Positions 6,428 through 50,975 of a DNA stretch of 64,000 nucleotides are shown in pieces. The stretch covers positions 372,001 to 436,000 of the forward strand of contig NZ_JANQOO010000021.1 of assembly GCF_028285715.1 (NCBI RefSeq), given 5' to 3'. The notes under the pieces are model-generated. The model did not search any database and was not told where the DNA came from. It saw nothing but the letters and a program-made list of their open reading frames with translations. The translations under genes were made by a program, and so were the position numbers. Each line of letters opens with the position of its first letter. The first letter of the stretch is position 1. The DNA comes from Ulvibacterium sp. (GTDB taxonomy: Bacteria > Bacteroidota > Bacteroidia > Flavobacteriales > Flavobacteriaceae).

Positions 6428-6898
6428 ATGGAAAATAAATATAAAGAAAATGTAAGTTCTATTGATGCAATCATAGAGACGTTATATTCCGTTATCAGCG
6501 GACAAAAAGGCGAGAAAAGAGACTGGGATCTCTTCAGATATCTTTTTCTTGAGGATGCAAAATGTGTACTTTACGAAAGAGACCTTGAAGGAATCGTGCG
6601 CCCGCGCTATTTGTCCCCTGACGATTACGTAAACGGCATTGGCGATTGGTTGGAAAATAAAAGAACCACGGATTTTTTTGAAAACGAACTTCATAAGACT
6701 GTTGAGGTTTTTGGTCCGATAGCCCACGGATGGAGTACCTATGAATCGTTTCACAGCAAAGAAGATGAAGTTCCTTACATGAGAGGCATTAATAGTTTTC
6801 AGTTGTTGTTCCATGACAATAGGTGGTGGATTGTTAATCTTTATTGGACACGCGAAACACCTCAAAACCCAATACCAAAAAAATACCTTCCCAAATAA
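6428..6898 (+). CDS. NTF2-like / SnoaL-like protein
   Basis: This is a 156-residue protein with the look of the NTF2-like fold: an N-terminal helix with WDLFRYLFLEDAKCVLY, a middle segment ending EVFGPIAHGWSTYES, and a final strand pair FQLLFHDNRWWIVNLYWTRE. Members of this superfamily include small cyclases, isomerases and ligand-binding proteins, so no reaction can be assigned. It is the last gene of the plus-strand polysaccharide/acyl block, 65 bases after the acetyltransferase. It may act on the product of that block, but this rests only on position. Confidence 0.6.
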   Translation: MENKYKENVSSIDAIIETLYSVISGQKGEKRDWDLFRYLFLEDAKCVLYERDLEGIVRPRYLSPDDYVNGIGDWLENKRTTDFFENELHKTVEVFGPIAHGWSTYESFHSKEDEVPYMRGINSFQLLFHDNRWWIVNLYWTRETPQNPIPKKYLPK

Positions 6899-7167
6899 AA
6901 GCCACTAAGGTGCATGCTTCAAAAGTTTTAGGTTATAATCATGCATTAGGAATTTGAATGGAAACATTAGCACCAACCTTTTCAAGGCAAAACTGGAGTT
7001 GAGATATAAATCCTTATAGGAAAACATTCTTACCAGGGAAGAAGGGTTATTTTTCGGATACTTTGGGGATAGTGTAAATTAAACTCTGTCAAATGTTTAT
7101 AATTCCCCTCATCCTTAGGGCAGTTTTCTTTAAAAATAAATGTCTTGATGATGACCTCCTCCCATAT

Positions 7168-7690
7168 TTAGGTACCAGTGCTAACTAGAGAATCCAAGCT
7201 ATTTTGATTCATTTCAATGTACTCCATGGGACATATCCCCAACGAGCTGTGCGGTCTAAAACCATTGTAATCCTCTCTCCAAATATCGAACTTTTCCTAT
7301 GCATCTTCCAAAGAAAAGAATCAGTTGGCATTCAAGCATTCGTCCCTGATTGAGCTATTGAAACTTTCTATGAATGGGTTTTCAGTAGGTATGCCTGGTC
7401 TTGAGAAGTCTAATTCCACGTCGTTCCAGTATGCCCACTTGTCCAATATTATACTGATGAACTCGCTCCCGTTATGCACTATGATGCGTTTAGGGAGTAC
7501 TTCGTTCCCTAAACTAATGGTTTCCATCACCTATACGACATCACTTCCCTTAAGCGACTTTCCCACATGGGTCGCAAGACACCTGCGACTATAATTAGCC
7601 ACTACGGCCAAGGCCCTGAAATGTCTACCATTATAGAGCTGGTAGCACACAAAATCCCCGTCTGCCGAGAGGTGGGCATGCTCCAACACT
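7168..7690 (-). pseudogene. IS3 OrfB transposase, catalytic half (broken)
   Basis: Read on the minus strand, this holds the integrase-core part of an IS3 OrfB: DFVCYQLYNGRHFRALAVV, then IIVHNGSEFISIILDKWAY, VELDFSRPGIPTENPFIES and a C-terminal DYNGFRPHSSLG before a TAA at 7168-7170. The frame is broken by three in-frame stops: TAG at 7531-7533, TGA at 7321-7323 and TAG at 7297-7299. The second catalytic Asp of the DDE triad, normally in a V-D-N-G motif, is His here (VHNGSEF). The first Asp and the Glu are still visible. It is clearly inactive. Confidence 0.8.
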
Positions 7691-43720: not shown

Positions 43721-44023
43721 TTACTCGTGCTTTATTCTATCGATTGTTGTCTTCAGATACCCGATTATTTCTTCCTTGGCCGATAACAGTTCCTTCAGTA
43801 AAGCCAGTTCATCTACCTCTGATGCAGATTTTGACTCCGGGATTTGTGAATCCATCAATTCCTTAATTCGCTCAAGATGCTTTCCGGAAGGACTCACTTT
43901 TTTCGACTCCCAGTTGGAAACAGTAGCCTGTTTTACACCCACCAATTTTCCAAAATCAGCCTGACTGATCCTTTTTTCCTTTCTGTACTTTAGAATCGAA
44001 ATATCTATCTCTGCTTGGGGCAT
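43721..44023 (-). CDS. XRE-family helix-turn-helix regulator
   Basis: This is a 100-residue DNA-binding protein. The N-terminal part holds a five-helix HTH_3 (Cro/C1) fold: LKYRKEKRISQADFGKLVGV and KQATVSNWESKKVSPSG. The C-terminal 40 residues form a charged helix (ELALLKELLSAKEEI) suited to dimer formation. It is transcribed away from the peptide genes and shares with them a very AT-rich gap of almost 500 bases. By position it is the best local candidate to control the peptide genes, but no direct evidence links it to the palindrome found there. Confidence 0.78.
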   Translation of the reverse strand: MPQAEIDISILKYRKEKRISQADFGKLVGVKQATVSNWESKKVSPSGKHLERIKELMDSQIPESKSASEVDELALLKELLSAKEEIIGYLKTTIDRIKHE

Positions 44024-44510
44024 GACGGAACGGTATAAAAAGAAAAATATGTCAGGTTAATATAAGAAAAATATAATAATGTAGTATTAAACTTATAAAT
44101 AATATAAGAAAATAATAATTATTGTTATTAAACAGGTTCAACCCGCTTAGAATACTTTATCCCACACATTTCCACTCGCATCAGGGTCCTTATGACTTTA
44201 ATAAAGAAGATTATCAGCTTTATAAGTAAAATCCAGATATTCTAAAGCTCAATCTTATAAATTGATAACTGTAAATCATCTGTTTTAAATTCTTAAATCT
44301 AAGTACAATATAATTTATCAAGTTGAAGATGTATTTGATGATCACTCGCTTCGTACTCTTTGGGGGATACCGCCAGGAAGTTTTTATCCAAAATAGTAGA
44401 AGTAAAGTACTTAATCAACCTTCCTAAGGAACTATGAAACCAACGAATATTGGGTATGGATTTGCAAATCGTTCACAATAAATGAAGTATTAATCCAAAA
44501 ATGAAAAAAA
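44024..44510. promoter_or_regulatory. AT-rich divergent control region between the regulator and peptide gene 1
   Basis: The region has no gene but several possible signals. Two near-copies of AATATAAGAAAA-(A)-TATAATAAT lie at 44059-44080 and 44101-44119, 42 bases apart (about four helix turns), just upstream of the XRE regulator. CTAAGTACAAT at 44299-44309 and ATGGATTTGCAAATC at 44456-44470 both recur upstream of peptide gene 3. Confidence 0.45.
44459..44470. promoter_or_regulatory. 12-base palindrome GATTTGCAAATC (copy 1)
   Basis: GATTTGCAAATC is its own reverse complement. It lies 41 bases before the ATG of peptide gene 1. The shared 15-base block ATGGATTTGCAAATC also occurs before peptide gene 3. 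It may be an operator. It could also overlap a degenerate -7 box (TGGATTTG). Confidence 0.5.
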
Positions 44511-44687
44511 ATGAAAAAAATCATTTCCAAGTTTTCGGACAAATTATTGTCCAAGGAACGTTTAAAAACCGTTAAGGGTGGAGCCACTCCTTATTGTTTT
44601 TGTGTAAGCAGTGGAGCTTATATTAATTGTCCATGGGGTTATGGACCGGGAAGTCAAGTACCTCATGGTGTAGGGGACTGTTGGTAG
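44511..44687 (+). CDS. Double-glycine leader peptide 1 (candidate modified/secreted peptide)
   Basis: This is a 58-residue precursor. The 24-residue leader ends LSKERLKTVKGG, a double-glycine leader of the type cleaved by C39 peptidase-ABC transporters, one of which lies downstream. The 34-residue core begins ATPYCFCVSSGA and has four Cys (core positions 5, 7, 16 and 33), with Pro, Gly and Tyr frequent and a final CW. Its leader is almost the same as those of the two sister genes at 44812 and 45880. The core has Ser and Thr residues that could be glycosylated by the enzyme encoded at 46193. The gene is too short for standard callers. An out-of-frame ATG sits 10 bases upstream. Confidence 0.88.
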   Translation: MKKIISKFSDKLLSKERLKTVKGGATPYCFCVSSGAYINCPWGYGPGSQVPHGVGDCW

Positions 44688-44811
44688 TTAAATTTAAAGG
44701 GGAATTGTCTACGGCAATTAAGTTATCCTTTTGTTTAACGAGATAGATTTCCGCCAGAAAAAGGTGTTACGGATTTTCAGACTTAAATTATTAATCTAAT
44801 AAGTAGAGAAA

Positions 44812-44979
44812 ATGAAAAAAATAATTTCAAAACTGTCCGACAAATTATTGTCAAAGGAACAATTAAAAACCGTTAAAGGCGGTACTCCATATTGTTTTTG
44901 CTGTGGTAGTCCTGTGGCTTGCCCCCCAGGATATCCGCCAGGAGGTGAAGCTCCATTTCCATGGTGCTGTGGTGGATGA
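44812..44979 (+). CDS. Double-glycine leader peptide 2 (candidate modified/secreted peptide)
   Basis: This is a 55-residue precursor with the same leader type (ending LSKEQLKTVKGG). The 31-residue core begins TPYCFCCGSPVACPPG and ends PWCCGG. It has six Cys (core positions 4, 6, 7, 13, 28 and 29) and is rich in Pro and Gly, with only one Thr and one Ser. The Tyr-Cys-x-Cys start is shared with the other two cores. A terminator hairpin follows at 45021-45042. It is probably co-transcribed with peptide gene 1, 124 bases upstream. Confidence 0.88.
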   Translation: MKKIISKLSDKLLSKEQLKTVKGGTPYCFCCGSPVACPPGYPPGGEAPFPWCCGG

Positions 44980-45020
44980 TATTAAAGAATAAAATATCAA
45001 TATACTTATTTGACTTTTTT

Positions 45021-45050
45021 GGCCCCAAAAAAATTTGGGGCCAATTTTTA
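45021..45050 (+). terminator. Intrinsic terminator after peptide gene 2
   Basis: GGCCCCAAA (45021-45029) pairs perfectly with TTTGGGGCC (45034-45042) around an AAAA loop, followed by AATTTTTA. It separates peptide genes 1 and 2 from peptide gene 3. Confidence 0.78.
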
Positions 45051-45821
45051 TTACCACTTTTTATTCGTTTCTGATTTTAAACGTAGTTGAGTAATTATTT
45101 ATCGTATATCACAGGATAACAGCTATATCTTAAGTCATCTACGAATCAAAAAAGGATAAGTCAACGTTATCCTTTAAATCTCATTCATAAATATTTCTAA
45201 TGAGTATCATAAAAAGATCTCAATAGCCATTTAACAGAATTTTAAACATAATATTATAAAATTATTCATTACTTTATGTAAGTAAATTACTATTATATGA
45301 AATTTATGAGACTAGGAATTCATATAGAAATCCATCCGGATTCTTGATTCTGTACATTTTTTCATACAAGGGTAACAATGGTTAATGTCCATATTCCTAA
45401 CAAGCGTAAAATTTGTCATAATGTGTTTCAAAATGTCCTATCCTAATAGCCAGTTCTTGGTGCAATTCATAACCAAGATACAGTAGGAGACGAATCAGAT
45501 ATAAAAAACAGGAAAATTATCGAATGTGAGATTACTTTCATTTCAAGTCGAAATTCCAATGAACTTCTATGCCAATTCGCAAGAAAATCGGTATACCAAA
45601 AAATTCGAAAAAGAAAGCCGCTAAAACAATGGTAAAAAAGGATTTTAAGACTAGGAACAACTGAGTTAACCAACTTTAAAACAGGTCGCAAATATAGGTT
45701 AAAAGAAGTTGATATTAATGGAGGTTATAAGATGTTTTGTAAGGTAAATCAGTACCTAAGTACAATTCAAGTGGAAGTTTTGATATCAGTGTTGACTTAT
45801 TCAACAGTGATCGCCCATAAC
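45051..45821. other. Long AT-rich non-coding spacer
   Basis: About 770 bases between the terminator and the control site of peptide gene 3. I see no convincing gene on either strand and no fourth copy of the leader motif. A plus-strand stretch near 45566-45660 encodes a Lys-rich fragment without a start and was not accepted. CTAAGTACAAT at 45756-45766 repeats a sequence upstream of peptide gene 1, so part of this spacer may be an old duplication of the peptide 1 control region. Confidence 0.5.
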
Positions 45822-45825
45822 AATG

Positions 45826-45837
45826 GATTTGCAAATC
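45826..45837. promoter_or_regulatory. 12-base palindrome GATTTGCAAATC (copy 2)
   Basis: This is the second perfect copy of the palindrome seen at 44459-44470, again inside ATGGATTTGCAAATC. It lies 43 bases before the ATG of peptide gene 3, almost the same spacing as at peptide gene 1 (41). Conservation of sequence and spacing in otherwise divergent DNA supports a regulatory role. Confidence 0.5.
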
Positions 45838-45879
45838 AGTGTATATAATTTATGTTTTAATCTTTAAAAATTAAAAAAA

Positions 45880-46080
45880 ATGAAAAAGCTCATTTCTCAA
45901 TTTTCGGACAGATTACTGTCCAAAGAACAATTGAAGACCGTTAAAGGAGGTACCCAATACTGCACTTGTGATGGAACTCTACAACCACTTACATGGCCGA
46001 CTTGCGAGCAGCAGTGCAGCGCAGGAGGTGGTGGATATGGTGAACTTTGCCAACAGCCAAATCCACCTTTCGGATGCTAG
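45880..46080 (+). CDS. Double-glycine leader peptide 3 (candidate modified/secreted peptide)
   Basis: This is a 66-residue precursor. The leader (start MKKLISQFSDRLLSKEQ, end LKTVKGG) matches those of peptides 1 and 2. The 42-residue core begins TQYCTCDGTLQP, has six Cys (core positions 4, 6, 18, 22, 33 and 42), a Gly run (AGGGGYGE) and ends PPFGC. It has five Thr and one Ser, more potential O-glycosylation sites than the other two. It has its own upstream palindrome and lies directly before the glycosyltransferase gene, so it may lead the operon for the modification and export genes. Confidence 0.9.
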   Translation: MKKLISQFSDRLLSKEQLKTVKGGTQYCTCDGTLQPLTWPTCEQQCSAGGGGYGELCQQPNPPFGC

Positions 46081-46156
46081 TTAAAATCTTATAATATCCA
46101 TATTATCCTTTCATGGTAATCAAAGGATTGTGGTCAAAGATTTTGATTTTGTAATT

Positions 46157-46177
46157 GGCTCTGTCGAACACAGAGCC
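46157..46177 (+). promoter_or_regulatory. Perfect hairpin before the glycosyltransferase start
   Basis: GGCTCTGT (46157-46164) pairs perfectly with ACAGAGCC (46170-46177), loop CGAAC. It ends 15 bases before the chosen ATG at 46193 and has no T-run, so it is more likely an mRNA stability or translation control element than a full terminator. It could lower expression of the enzyme genes relative to peptide 3. Confidence 0.42.
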
Positions 46178-46192
46178 AAATTTCGTGAACGG

Positions 46193-47440
46193 ATGAACTT
46201 ATTTATAATACAACCCTTTCAAAGTCACTTGTATCCTGTATTTGGTTTGGCTCATAAGTTTGAGAGCCAAGGTAAAAAGGTGGTATTTACCACCACCCCC
46301 CAGCTCATTGGAATCTTAAAAAATGAAGGTTTCGAATATTGGGAATTTGCCTACCTATCCGAGTATATAATCAAGAACTATAAATCCTTTCTGGGTTTGC
46401 TCTTAAAAAGTTCGGTTTCAAAAGCGTTTTATAGGGAACGAAAAAAAGAGTTTGGAAATGCGTTTCGGCACACCCAAAAACTAATCGAGGAACTCAAGCC
46501 AACTCATGTATTTATAGATCAAAGTCTGGCTGAATACTATTTTTTCTTTAGACCTTTTGTCTCGAATATCACCATAGTACATACCAAAGTATACTCAGGA
46601 AAGACCAAAGGCATTCCCCCGATGAACTCAACGGTGATTCCAGAAACGAGCCTATTTTCAAAAATAAAAATTGAGCTTTTATGGATTAGGGAATTGTGGA
46701 AGCAACGATTTCGGGAACTAGTCTTAAAAACTGCTTTCTTAGGAAAGGATGAGACTTACTTCTGGAAAGAACATTGCAGGAAATATGGAATGCAATGGAA
46801 CAGACAAGTAGATTTAAATCATTCCCTGAACAGAGGGGTTAAAAATGTTGATCACCTCTTACTCCTACCTAGGGAATTGGAATTCCCACGTTTTAAGAAA
46901 CCCAAACATGTACGTTTTTTTGAAAAATTATCTCAAAAAAACGAAAGTGTTTACTATACCCCAACTTATTCTGACCTAAAAAGGAAATACCTTCTTGGAA
47001 ACAGTTTAAAGGTAATATATATGGCTTTTGGCACCTTAGCCCAAGGGGCAAAGGTCACTAACTTCTTCAATACGGTAATTTCAGTAGTCGGGGAGTTCTC
47101 GGAAACCGTACTCATTATTTCCAAAGGCAATCACAAAATGGAGTTGAAAAAAGCGAATAATGCATTCTCTTTTGATTATCTCCCCCAACAGGACGTGTTG
47201 TCCCATGCCGATTTGTTCATTACCCATGGAGGGTTGGGTTCGGTGAAAGAGGCCTTCCACAATAATGTACCCATGCTCGTTGTCCCCATGAATAAATTTA
47301 TAGACCAAAACGGCAATGCAGCTAGGGTAAAGGCCAATGGTCTTGGTGATTATATAAATATTGACAAGTATTCGAGGTCAGAGGTAATGAAAAAAATAAA
47401 AATGTTGTTGCCAGACCTCAAAGTTCAAATTGCCATTTAA
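46193..47440 (+). CDS. GT1-type (MGT/UGT-like) glycosyltransferase
   Basis: This is a 415-residue GT-B fold enzyme that should move a sugar from a nucleotide-sugar donor. The N-terminal MNLFIIQPFQSHLYPVFGLA holds the catalytic-type His12. The donor-binding motif near the end is THGGLGSVKEAFHNN, followed by PMNKFIDQNGNAARV. The start at 46193 was chosen because the fold begins there and a hairpin lies just upstream. A start at 46130 would add 21 residues unlike the family. It sits between peptide gene 3 and the C39 exporter, which makes the Cys-rich cores the likely acceptors. This is inferred. No other RiPP-type modifying enzyme is seen nearby. It could instead act on a small molecule or surface sugar. 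Confidence 0.84.
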   Translation: MNLFIIQPFQSHLYPVFGLAHKFESQGKKVVFTTTPQLIGILKNEGFEYWEFAYLSEYIIKNYKSFLGLLLKSSVSKAFYRERKKEFGNAFRHTQKLIEELKPTHVFIDQSLAEYYFFFRPFVSNITIVHTKVYSGKTKGIPPMNSTVIPETSLFSKIKIELLWIRELWKQRFRELVLKTAFLGKDETYFWKEHCRKYGMQWNRQVDLNHSLNRGVKNVDHLLLLPRELEFPRFKKPKHVRFFEKLSQKNESVYYTPTYSDLKRKYLLGNSLKVIYMAFGTLAQGAKVTNFFNTVISVVGEFSETVLIISKGNHKMELKKANNAFSFDYLPQQDVLSHADLFITHGGLGSVKEAFHNNVPMLVVPMNKFIDQNGNAARVKANGLGDYINIDKYSRSEVMKKIKMLLPDLKVQIAI

Positions 47441-47471
47441 AAAATGAAGTTTAAAATTTTGAAAACGGTCT

Positions 47472-49682
47472 ATGCCCAAAAAGTTTCCACACTACACCCA
47501 ACCCGATAGCAAGGACTGTGGACCTACATGTCTCAAGATTATTGCAAAACACTATGGTAAAACCGTTTCCCTGCCTCATATCCGGGAAATTAGTGAAACC
47601 ACAAGATCCGGGAGCAGCCTCTTGGATCTAAGTGACGCCGCTGAACACCTAGGCTTTAAAAGCCTTGGTGTAAAACTTTCCTATAAAGATCTTTTAAAGG
47701 CACCCCTACCCTGTATCCTACACTGGAACAAGGTACACTTTGTGGTATTGTATGGCGCGGAAACCAGCAAAAAAAATGGGGAAATGTTAAAAACTTCAGA
47801 TCCGGGTTATGGGCTATTGAACCACTCTAAAGAAGAATTGTTGAAATCATGGATTGGCAACAACGCCGACGAAAATACTGAAGAGGGTATAGCACTACTT
47901 TTGGAGCCTACTTCCAAATTCTATCAAAGTGAATTTAACGAAGGTCGGGTAAAACCTTTGGGACTATCCTTCCTAACAAGTTACTTGATTAAATATAAAA
48001 GGTTTATCTGGCAACTGGTCATTGGTCTTTTGGCCGGCAGCTTACTCCAGGTCATCTTCCCTTTCCTGACCCAAAGTATAGTAGATGTAGGAATCAAGAA
48101 TCAGGACATTAATTTTGTTTATCTCATTTTATTCGCTCAACTAGCCTTATTCTTGGGCAGGACGGGAGTGGAGGTAATCAGGAGTTGGATACTGTTACAC
48201 CTAAGCACGCGTATAAATATTTCCTTGGTATCCGATTTTTTCATCAAGCTTATGAAACTCCCGATATCATTTTTTGATACCCGAATGACCGGTGATATCC
48301 TTCAACGCATAAATGATCATAACCGTATTGAGCGAATACTAACAACTTCATCTTTGAACGTACTGTTTTCCATGATAAATGTGGTGGTATTTGGATTGGT
48401 CCTAGCCTACTATAGCCTTTTGATTTTCAGCATATTTTTGATAGGAAGCATTCTGTATTTCATTTGGATTATTGTTTTCTTGAAAAAACGGAGGGATTTG
48501 GACTATAAGCGATTTTCACAAATAAGCCAGGAACAAAGTAAAGTCATAGAGCTGATAAACGGGATGCAGACCATAAAACTGCATAATGCCGAGAAAAAGA
48601 AACGCTGGGGATGGGAGTTTCTTCAGGCCCGCCTGTTCAAAATTTCAATTGAAAGCCTGGCTTTGGAGCAGTATCAAAGCGTGGGTTCGGGTTTCATCAA
48701 TGAATTAAAGAATATTCTAATTACAGTTCTTTCCGCCAAATTGGTCATTGATGGGGATATTACTTTGGGGATGATGTTAGCCATTTCCTATATCGTCGGT
48801 CAATTGAATTCCCCTATTTCCCAGCTGATTAATTTCATAAAAGAAATCCAAGATGCCAAAATATCATTGGAACGCCTTGGTGAAATACATAATAAAAAAG
48901 ATGAGGAAGGTGACATCCGGGAAAAAATTAATGCTATTCCCGCTAATCTGGATTTTTTTATCAAGAATCTATCCTTCAGATATCGAGGTTCGGACAAGTT
49001 TGTCCTGCAAGGGTTGGATTTACATATTCCTTCTAATAAAGTAACAGCCATCGTAGGAACTAGCGGTAGTGGAAAGAGCACCCTAATGAAATTGCTTCTG
49101 CGGTTTTATGAGCCTTCTAAAGGCAAAATAAAATTTGGTACTTATGACACCAGGAATATATCCCAAAAAGTTTGGAGGGATAAATGCGGTGTGGTCATGC
49201 AAGAAGACTATATCTTCAATGATACCATTGCCAATAACATAGCTATAGGCGTAGACCATATTGATAAAAAACGCCTAAAATATGCTGTTGAAGTGGCTAA
49301 TATTGAGGAATATATCGAAGAACTGCCATTATCCTATAACACAAAAATTGGAATGGAAGGAATCGGTTTAAGTACCGGACAGAAACAAAGGTTACTCATA
49401 GCCAGGGCAGTATATAAAAACCCGGATTATTTATTTTTTGATGAGGCAACATCAGCACTTGATGCAAACAATGAGAAGGTAATTATGGAAAAGTTGGATC
49501 GATTCTTTACCAACAAAACGGTTTTGGTTATCGCGCATAGATTAAGTACCGTAAAAAATGCCCATCAAATTGTGGTATTGGACAATGGCAAGATAGTGGA
49601 GATAGGAAATCATCGTGCTTTGGTAAAGCAACAGGGAGCATACTTTAATTTGGTAAAAAATCAATTGGAATTAGGAAATTAA
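47472..49682 (+). CDS. C39 peptidase-containing ABC exporter (PCAT)
   Basis: This is a 736-residue bifunctional exporter that cuts the leader after Gly-Gly and exports the core peptide. The N-terminal C39 domain reads HYTQPDSKDCGPTCLKIIAK, with catalytic Cys16 and Gln10, and the His in ILHWNKVHFVVLYG. A six-helix membrane domain follows (about residues 170-450). The ATPase domain has Walker A GTSGSGKST (529-537), signature LSTGQKQRLL, Walker B DYLFFDEATSALD and H-loop VIAHRLS. All catalytic residues are present. It lies 31 bases after the glycosyltransferase and abuts the HlyD gene. The match between a C39 domain and the double-glycine leaders upstream is direct. Confidence 0.95.
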   Translation: MPKKFPHYTQPDSKDCGPTCLKIIAKHYGKTVSLPHIREISETTRSGSSLLDLSDAAEHLGFKSLGVKLSYKDLLKAPLPCILHWNKVHFVVLYGAETSKKNGEMLKTSDPGYGLLNHSKEELLKSWIGNNADENTEEGIALLLEPTSKFYQSEFNEGRVKPLGLSFLTSYLIKYKRFIWQLVIGLLAGSLLQVIFPFLTQSIVDVGIKNQDINFVYLILFAQLALFLGRTGVEVIRSWILLHLSTRINISLVSDFFIKLMKLPISFFDTRMTGDILQRINDHNRIERILTTSSLNVLFSMINVVVFGLVLAYYSLLIFSIFLIGSILYFIWIIVFLKKRRDLDYKRFSQISQEQSKVIELINGMQTIKLHNAEKKKRWGWEFLQARLFKISIESLALEQYQSVGSGFINELKNILITVLSAKLVIDGDITLGMMLAISYIVGQLNSPISQLINFIKEIQDAKISLERLGEIHNKKDEEGDIREKINAIPANLDFFIKNLSFRYRGSDKFVLQGLDLHIPSNKVTAIVGTSGSGKSTLMKLLLRFYEPSKGKIKFGTYDTRNISQKVWRDKCGVVMQEDYIFNDTIANNIAIGVDHIDKKRLKYAVEVANIEEYIEELPLSYNTKIGMEGIGLSTGQKQRLLIARAVYKNPDYLFFDEATSALDANNEKVIMEKLDRFFTNKTVLVIAHRLSTVKNAHQIVVLDNGKIVEIGNHRALVKQQGAYFNLVKNQLELGN

Positions 49683-50975
49683 ATGGGTGATACTTTAGAC
49701 AATATAAAATTACGGAGTGAAGAGGTTCAGGAGATACTTACCAGGGTTCCTCATTGGATGATACGCTGGGGCAGCACCTTGTTCTTATCCCTTATTGTTT
49801 TGGTATTGGCCATCTCATGGTTTATTAAATATCCCGATTTAATAATGTCCCAAGCGATCATCACCACCAAAACCCCTCCACAAAAGGAGTTTGCGATGGT
49901 TTCTGCAAAATTTGACTCAATACATGTGATTGAATCTCAAGAGGTAAATAAGAACTCTGTTTTGGCGGTCTTGGAAAATACGGCCAACACAGAAGATGTT
50001 CTATATCTACAATCCATACTTGATACCATTAAGATATCGGATAAATCCATTGAATTTCCTTTTGATAGTCTTCCTATTCTATTTTTAGGAGACATAAACC
50101 AAAGTTTTGCATTGTTCGAAAACAGCTATTTTCAATACAAATTGAATAAACGATTACAACCTTTTTCCAACGAGGCAATTGCCAATGAGATTTCCCTTGC
50201 GGAACTGAGAAAGAGGCTCTCCAGTTTGGAAGATCAATTTGCCCTTAGTAAATCTGAATTGGCTTTTAAGAAATCTGATCTGAATCGCCACGAGGGCTTG
50301 TACGAAAAAGGAGTAATCTCCCAACAGGAATTTGAAAACAAGAAGCTGGAAGTATTGTCCTCTGAAAGGAATACAAAAACACTTGGGGCCTCAATTTCCC
50401 AAATACGAGAGGCCATAGGAGGGGCCAAGAAAACATCAAAAGAAACCGAGATTTCAAGGACCAGAGAGGAAGTGCAATTGTTGAAGACTACTATCCAAGC
50501 CTTTAATCAATTAAAGCAGGCCATTAAGGATTGGGAAAACACCTTTGTATTCAAGTCAGAAATTAAGGGCAAGGTTTCCTTTATGAACTATTGGGACCAA
50601 AACCAGTCCGTATTTCAAGGAGATCTTGTCTTTACCATAATACCTTCCGACAATTTAGATTATGTGGCAAAATTGAAGACACCTTCTCAAAATTCGGGGA
50701 AAATTAAGTTAGGACAATCCGTTAATGTGAAACTTGAAAACTATCCAGAAACCGAATTTGGCATCTTAAAGGGAGAAGTTGAAAATATTTCCCTAACACC
50801 GGACAAGGACGGCTTTTATTTGGTGGACGTCTCCCTACCGAAGGAAATGATTACGAGCTATGGCAAGGAAATTGATTTTAAGCAGGAAATGCGCGGGGGA
50901 GCCGAGATCATTACAGAGGATTTGAGACTTCTAGAACGATTTTTTTATCAGTTTAAGGAAGCCTTCGAAAGATAA
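49683..50975 (+). CDS. HlyD-family membrane fusion (periplasmic adaptor) protein
   Basis: This is a 430-residue adaptor that links the ABC exporter to an outer membrane channel. One N-terminal membrane helix (GSTLFLSLIVLVLAISWFI) is followed by a lipoyl-like half, a long coiled-coil hairpin (about residues 165-285, including LAELRKRLSSLEDQFALSKS) and a beta-barrel domain with KLKTPSQNSGKIKLGQSVNV. Its ATG follows the exporter stop without a gap. No TolC-like gene is in the island, so a shared outer membrane protein encoded elsewhere is likely used. Confidence 0.9.
   Translation: MGDTLDNIKLRSEEVQEILTRVPHWMIRWGSTLFLSLIVLVLAISWFIKYPDLIMSQAIITTKTPPQKEFAMVSAKFDSIHVIESQEVNKNSVLAVLENTANTEDVLYLQSILDTIKISDKSIEFPFDSLPILFLGDINQSFALFENSYFQYKLNKRLQPFSNEAIANEISLAELRKRLSSLEDQFALSKSELAFKKSDLNRHEGLYEKGVISQQEFENKKLEVLSSERNTKTLGASISQIREAIGGAKKTSKETEISRTREEVQLLKTTIQAFNQLKQAIKDWENTFVFKSEIKGKVSFMNYWDQNQSVFQGDLVFTIIPSDNLDYVAKLKTPSQNSGKIKLGQSVNVKLENYPETEFGILKGEVENISLTPDKDGFYLVDVSLPKEMITSYGKEIDFKQEMRGGAEIITEDLRLLERFFYQFKEAFER

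Follow-up and report, generated by a model that had tools for sequence, protein, structure and literature searches.

Few glycosylated RiPPs were known at the time of a 2021 review, namely NAI-112, cacaoidin and the glycocins (PMC8068269). In known glycocins the sugar sits on Ser, Thr or Cys (PMC12457901), and those known by 2019 contain five Cys (PMC6405829). Like the family described here, for which the disulfides are predicted, the glycocins sublancin, glycocin F and pallidocin combine in one cluster a precursor bearing a GG-type leader, one glycosyltransferase, a C39-ABC exporter and disulfides (PMC6405829). Cacaoidin, a RiPP of lanthipeptide class V, carries O-glycosylation on a tyrosine (PMC8068269), as is probable for the present peptides, but it differs in its lanthionine chemistry, in its proposed GT2/GT4 enzymes and in having no comparable C39/GG export. 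The bacteroidetocins are likewise Bacteroidota peptides with a GG leader and disulfides (PMC6671954); that paper, however, mentions no glycosyltransferase, and the likeness is drawn from its description rather than from core sequences.

Positions 43721–50975 of the window (the entire 64-kb stretch of DNA analyzed here, positions 372001–436000 of contig 19 in the genome of a marine flavobacterium of the Ulvibacterium group) contain three double-glycine precursor genes, a GT1 glycosyltransferase (GT) gene, a C39 peptidase-ABC exporter gene, an HlyD gene and a divergently oriented XRE gene. A sequence-only reading had placed the same genes here, with an intact C39 catalytic site and the XRE gene facing away, and all of these assignments were reproduced. 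We consider it likely that its products are exported peptides that are rich in disulfides and carry a sugar.

The precursors, all encoded on the + strand and recognized by a leader profile, share the 24-residue leader MKK(I/L)IS(K/Q)xSD(K/R)LLSKE(R/Q)LKTVKGG, with profile matches in the window genome as strong as E 1e-12. Precursor 1 (44511–44687), whose leader ends in LKTVKGG and which has syntenic homologs in the two genus relatives (L003 and L004), carries the 34-residue core ATPYCFCVSSGAYINCPWGYGPGSQVPHGVGDCW with four Cys; precursors 2 (44812–44979) and 3 (45880–46080) carry the cores TPYCFCCGSPVACPPGYPPGGEAPFPWCCGG and TQYCTCDGTLQPLTWPTCEQQCSAGGGGYGELCQQPNPPFGC of 31 and 42 residues, respectively, with six Cys each. 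The leaders resemble TIGR04149 (GG_sam_targ_CFB), yet their scores of 18.9–22.5 bits lie under the curated cut-off of 25, and a SPASM domain was found nowhere in the whole genome. We therefore do not assign the locus to the TIGR04149 radical-SAM systems, and radical-SAM tailoring in trans was rejected on the latter ground. The proposed absence of radical-SAM tailoring thus extends to the entire genome, while that of YcaO and lanthipeptide enzymes was borne out within the island.

The GT (46193–47440, + strand, 415 aa) lies in an open reading frame spanning 46130–47440, in which the start conserved among relatives is the ATG at 46193. It matches Pfam UDPGT (E 2e-15), is MGT-like by NCBIfam and finds OleD, YjiC and UGT structures in PDB profile searches; no SunS-type or Glycos_transf_2 match was obtained for this protein. 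Conserved residues include H12, D109, HGG 345–347 and D371, and the GT1/UGT signature, an N-terminal His plus HGG...P...D(Q/H), is present, with H12, HGG and D371 invariant across eight relatives. An AlphaFold model computed from three sequences reached a pLDDT of 44, too poor for use, and the GT1 assignment stands at the level of sequence.

Downstream on the same strand, the exporter (47472–49682, 736 aa) comprises Peptidase_C39 (E 3.7e-27), ABC_membrane and ABC_tran domains, the composition of a PCAT, and alignment to PCAT1 (4ry2) revealed all four C39 residues (Q10, C16, H89 and D110). It is followed by an HlyD-type periplasmic adaptor (49683–50975, + strand, 430 aa; HlyD_3 E 2e-11; type_I_hlyD). 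The GG-type leader and the C39-ABC exporter predicted to process it, as expected of a glycocin, are thus both found here, as judged from sequence. The island had been described as self-contained, which is only partly right: the C39-VKOR-thioredoxin enzyme that usually adjoins the GT in the cassettes of relatives is missing from the Ulvibacterium cluster, and the sole copy in the window genome is 28% identical and encoded outside the cluster. On the same contig as the window, near 94 kb, a second C39-ABC gene (31% identical) occurs with an HlyD-like gene, a GT2-like gene (recognized by eye) and a short GG open reading frame (MKELEIYGTTELSRMEIDELNGGG...), constituting another peptide export locus (L020:6428–12981).

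The element GGATTTGCAAATC occurs twice in the 64-kb window, each time upstream of a precursor gene on the + strand, namely at 44458–44470, 53 bp before precursor 1, and at 45825–45837, 55 bp before precursor 3; it is a likely promoter/operator. More broadly, a GGATTTGC(N)2ATC-type element precedes 11 of 12 precursor genes from Ulvibacterium and two other genera at -53 to -55 bp from the start codon. Judged from this element at 53–55 bp, each precursor carries its own predicted promoter-like module. The genes, described in the sequence-only reading as lying in one run, probably do not form a single transcription run. An intrinsic terminator-like hairpin (45019–45044, + strand; 11-bp stem and T tract) follows precursor 2, suggesting that precursors 1 and 2 probably form one unit and precursor 3, GT, ABC and HlyD another; the terminator count as such is no higher than in shuffles. 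The divergent XRE gene (43721–44023, - strand) encodes a DNA-binding protein of 100 aa (HTH_3 E 8e-11) that may act as a regulator. It is kept in both genus relatives, and in Chitinophagaceae clusters, too, HTH_3 genes are oriented away from the VKOR/GT unit. Binding of the GATTTGCAAATC element by the XRE protein was set aside as insufficiently supported, since the element is exact also in two loci in which an XRE gene was looked for in vain (L012 and L013). Searches for RNA families gave sub-threshold matches only, mostly at the terminator after SusD. A 70-nt noncoding stretch of the window (45229–45298) recurs with 84% identity in both L003 and L004, at the equivalent position among their precursor genes.

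The GT1-GG-C39-HlyD set is syntenic in all three genus genomes, including that of the window. Flanked by SusCD on one side and a VCBS-type gene on the other, the cluster keeps the window's gene order in both relatives; L003 has three precursors and L004 four. GT (dN/dS 0.07–0.13) as well as ABC and HlyD (0.03–0.06) are under purifying selection, and the precursor cores diverge faster than their leaders. Between the precursors, L003 contains a decayed fragment of an ABC exporter (7126–7362; 62% over 79 aa) and L004 one of a GT (approximately 6840–6950; 49% over 37 aa), remnants of earlier duplication and decay of the cassette.

Beyond the genus, GT matches were found in 7 of 397 Flavobacteriaceae genomes, five of them close (60% or more; four besides the window's own) and spread over three genera; the leader profile matched 4 of 373 Flavobacteriaceae genomes, all four with the GT. 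In two genomes of other genera, each with a GT of 60% identity, the gene order is C39-VKOR-thioredoxin, precursor, GT, ABC and HlyD (G110) or VKOR, precursor and GT, with the ABC gene elsewhere (G020). A phylum sample and a family search added Chitinophagaceae-type genomes, the family name being inferred from genus codes; GT matches at 1e-30 occurred in 59 of 222. About 50 gene orders from this group show a repeated cassette of an HTH_3 gene facing away, C39-VKOR-Trx, GT1, GG precursors, C39-ABC and HlyD; VKOR and redoxin/thioredoxin genes flank the GT, and redoxin/thioredoxin proteins are often encoded within the cassette. Forty-four GG open reading frames lie on the strand of the GT, in 29 of 51 loci, compared to two on the opposite strand (in two loci), both seemingly spurious. 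With a leader-only profile, partly trained on GT1-adjacent loci, 75 matches at 1e-4 were obtained in the 222 Chitinophagaceae genomes, 48 of them within 10 kb of a GT1 match (0.3 expected). A chance origin of the GG motifs was rejected on the basis of this strand bias and GT1 proximity.

This genome search with a leader profile, which the sequence-only reading had proposed as a check, thus showed leader and GT1 recurring together, and exporter and peptides are found side by side in the genus, in G110 and in the Chitinophagaceae cassettes. Peptide modification plus export, the suggested function, is strongly supported, since GT1, GG precursors and a C39 exporter were found together at many loci. 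No earlier description of GT1-VKOR-GG clusters was found in the open-access literature searched, and to that extent the idea that the island differs from the Bacteroidota clusters described so far is borne out; yet the island is not unique, with the family present in at least two Bacteroidota families. As a whole, the earlier reading is partly supported: it was mostly right, but too local.

A quick GT tree groups the window GT with relatives of the same cluster architecture. Counting against the peptide reading, not all members of the GT family are linked to peptides: a nested subclade (L079, L081–L083) and distant members (L014, L015) lack a neighboring GG precursor, and several of these adjoin large multidomain open reading frames. 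Five loci (L087, L088, L095, L096 and L098) pair GT1 relatives and C39-ABC with glycine-zipper-like GG peptides (e.g. ...GGSACSGALGASIGATVIAGAG...), without VKOR. A second, distant GT1 clade (clade II; L099, L103, L104, L176–L189) adjoins C39-VKOR, with precursors whose cores frequently terminate in a [YW]CCxSC-like motif. In addition, Chitinophagaceae have C39-VKOR/GG peptide/C39-ABC/HlyD clusters without GT1 (L140–L158, e.g. L141, L142, L144 and L145), seemingly a common system there for exporting disulfide peptides.

Comparison of the cores pointed to the chemistry of the product. The Cys number is even in 32 of 33 cores beside a clade-I GT, in 11/11 beside a clade-II GT and in 17/19 from GT-less sister clusters; the cysteines are therefore probably all engaged in disulfides, in agreement with the VKOR/thioredoxin neighbors, leaving no spare Cys for an S-linked sugar. 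A Tyr falls within core residues 1–6 in all 33 cores beside a clade-I GT, but in just 5 of the 19 cores from sister clusters lacking the GT (p 7e-9), although the Tyr hypothesis is post hoc and kinship among cores was only partly removed from these statistics. After collapsing similar cores, the counts were 23/23 and 4/17, with within-core shuffles giving a mean of 8 and a maximum of 16 of 23; including loci examined later, they were 35/36 beside GT1 and 8/23 without (p 2e-7). Three of four cores checked later as Tyr tests fit (L173, G966 and G963), while one located beyond an XRE gene (G934:6692805) does not, and three further cores have the Tyr without a clade-I GT in their vicinity (G940, G935 and G980). 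Only 5 of 11 cores beside clade-II GTs have the Tyr, and we therefore do not extend the site prediction to clade II. All Flavobacteriaceae cores contain T-x-Y-C, with the Tyr 3–4 residues past the cleavage site.

The sugar might instead reside on Ser/Thr or Cys, as in glycocins, with the conserved Tyr serving recognition or folding only. This alternative, which we regard as unlikely, gains from the Ser, Thr and Cys sites of known glycocins (PMC12457901) and from a Thr invariant in 12/12 Flavobacteriaceae cores, two residues N-terminal to the Tyr. However, Ser/Thr in the first six residues shows no association with the GT (24/33 with, 13/19 without), and an even Cys number leaves none spare, unlike the five Cys of the glycocins known by 2019 (PMC6405829). 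Given the GT-Tyr association, a correlation, and the lack of a Ser/Thr difference, we name Tyr the most likely acceptor and the invariant Thr the second choice.

It is rather improbable that the peptides go without modification, as disulfide bacteriocins resembling class II or as signaling peptides, with the GT acting on another substrate, e.g. a surface lipid. While the VKOR-GG-C39-HlyD cassette also exists without GT, and bacteroidetocins provide a precedent for exported, apparently unmodified disulfide GG peptides (PMC6671954), GT presence tracks a core feature, the Tyr, and the GT gene separates precursor from exporter in Ulvibacterium and G110, and VKOR from precursor in the majority of Chitinophagaceae loci. 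Least probable of all is a self-protection role, in which intracellular glycosylation keeps the peptides harmless (as with OleI/OleD and oleandomycin), while outside the cell the sugar is removed or plays no part. In its favor, the GT most resembles macrolide-type GTs in its C-terminal half, among them the self-immunity family OleI, and no other immunity gene was recognized in the island. Against it, all those matches fall far under the curated cut-offs, the conserved set has no partner glycosidase, sister clusters that share the exporter and VKOR manage without a GT, and some relatives have a second GT. One such gene, encoding a GT2-family glycosyltransferase, lies beside GT1 in a Chitinophagaceae cluster (L073:10758–11582) and perhaps adds a second sugar.

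In the preferred reading, glycosylation followed by export, the three precursors, each with its double-glycine leader, would be glycosylated in the cytoplasm by the GT1, with a nucleotide sugar as donor and the core as target; the prime candidate for the acceptor is the Tyr 3–4 residues after the cleavage site, followed by the neighboring Thr. As expected from the protein families, the C39 domain would then cut after GG, and ABC-HlyD would export the core together with a TolC-like protein encoded elsewhere. The four, six and six cysteines would pair as disulfides, a step probably catalyzed in relatives by the dedicated C39-VKOR-thioredoxin and here presumably by the distant copy elsewhere or a general oxidase. 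With all disulfides formed, the calculated neutral monoisotopic masses of the cores of precursors 1, 2 and 3 are 3573.467, 3113.177 and 4431.773, or 3735.520, 3275.230 and 4593.826 with one hexose added. By analogy to glycocins, a narrow-spectrum bacteriocin is the most likely role, the weakest step of the proposal, and no immunity gene was recognized.

Compared to glycocin clusters, the locus employs a GT1 instead of a SunS-like S-glycosyltransferase, adds an HlyD adaptor for the Gram-negative envelope, and encodes cores with even Cys numbers (4, 6 and 6) rather than five, with Tyr as the predicted acceptor. Glycocin clusters encode thioredoxin and DsbB-type oxidoreductases (PMC6405829), whereas most relatives of the present cluster have a VKOR-thioredoxin fused to a C39-like domain and the window cluster has none locally. 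As both the SunS-type enzyme and the five-Cys core are absent, we do not file the locus as a glycocin; we predict, however, that it works functionally like a glycocin cluster, as a Gram-negative counterpart with an unrelated glycosyltransferase and redox module. More tentatively, and with some doubt, we suggest that exported, disulfide-rich peptides glycosylated by a GT1 of the antibiotic/UGT type, on a Tyr next to the leader cleavage site, form a class that spans the Bacteroidota and arose independently of the Gram-positive glycocins.

The interest of the locus centers on this wider family and on the testable Tyr/even-Cys rule. If true, Bacteroidota would hold dozens more glycosylated RiPPs, made by a different enzyme family, and a simple rule (a Tyr near the cut plus an even Cys number) would predict product masses. 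The genes for precursor, GT and exporter are few enough to be transferred to E. coli as a set, and the GT would become a candidate for a UGT-type enzyme that glycosylates peptides under the guidance of a leader.
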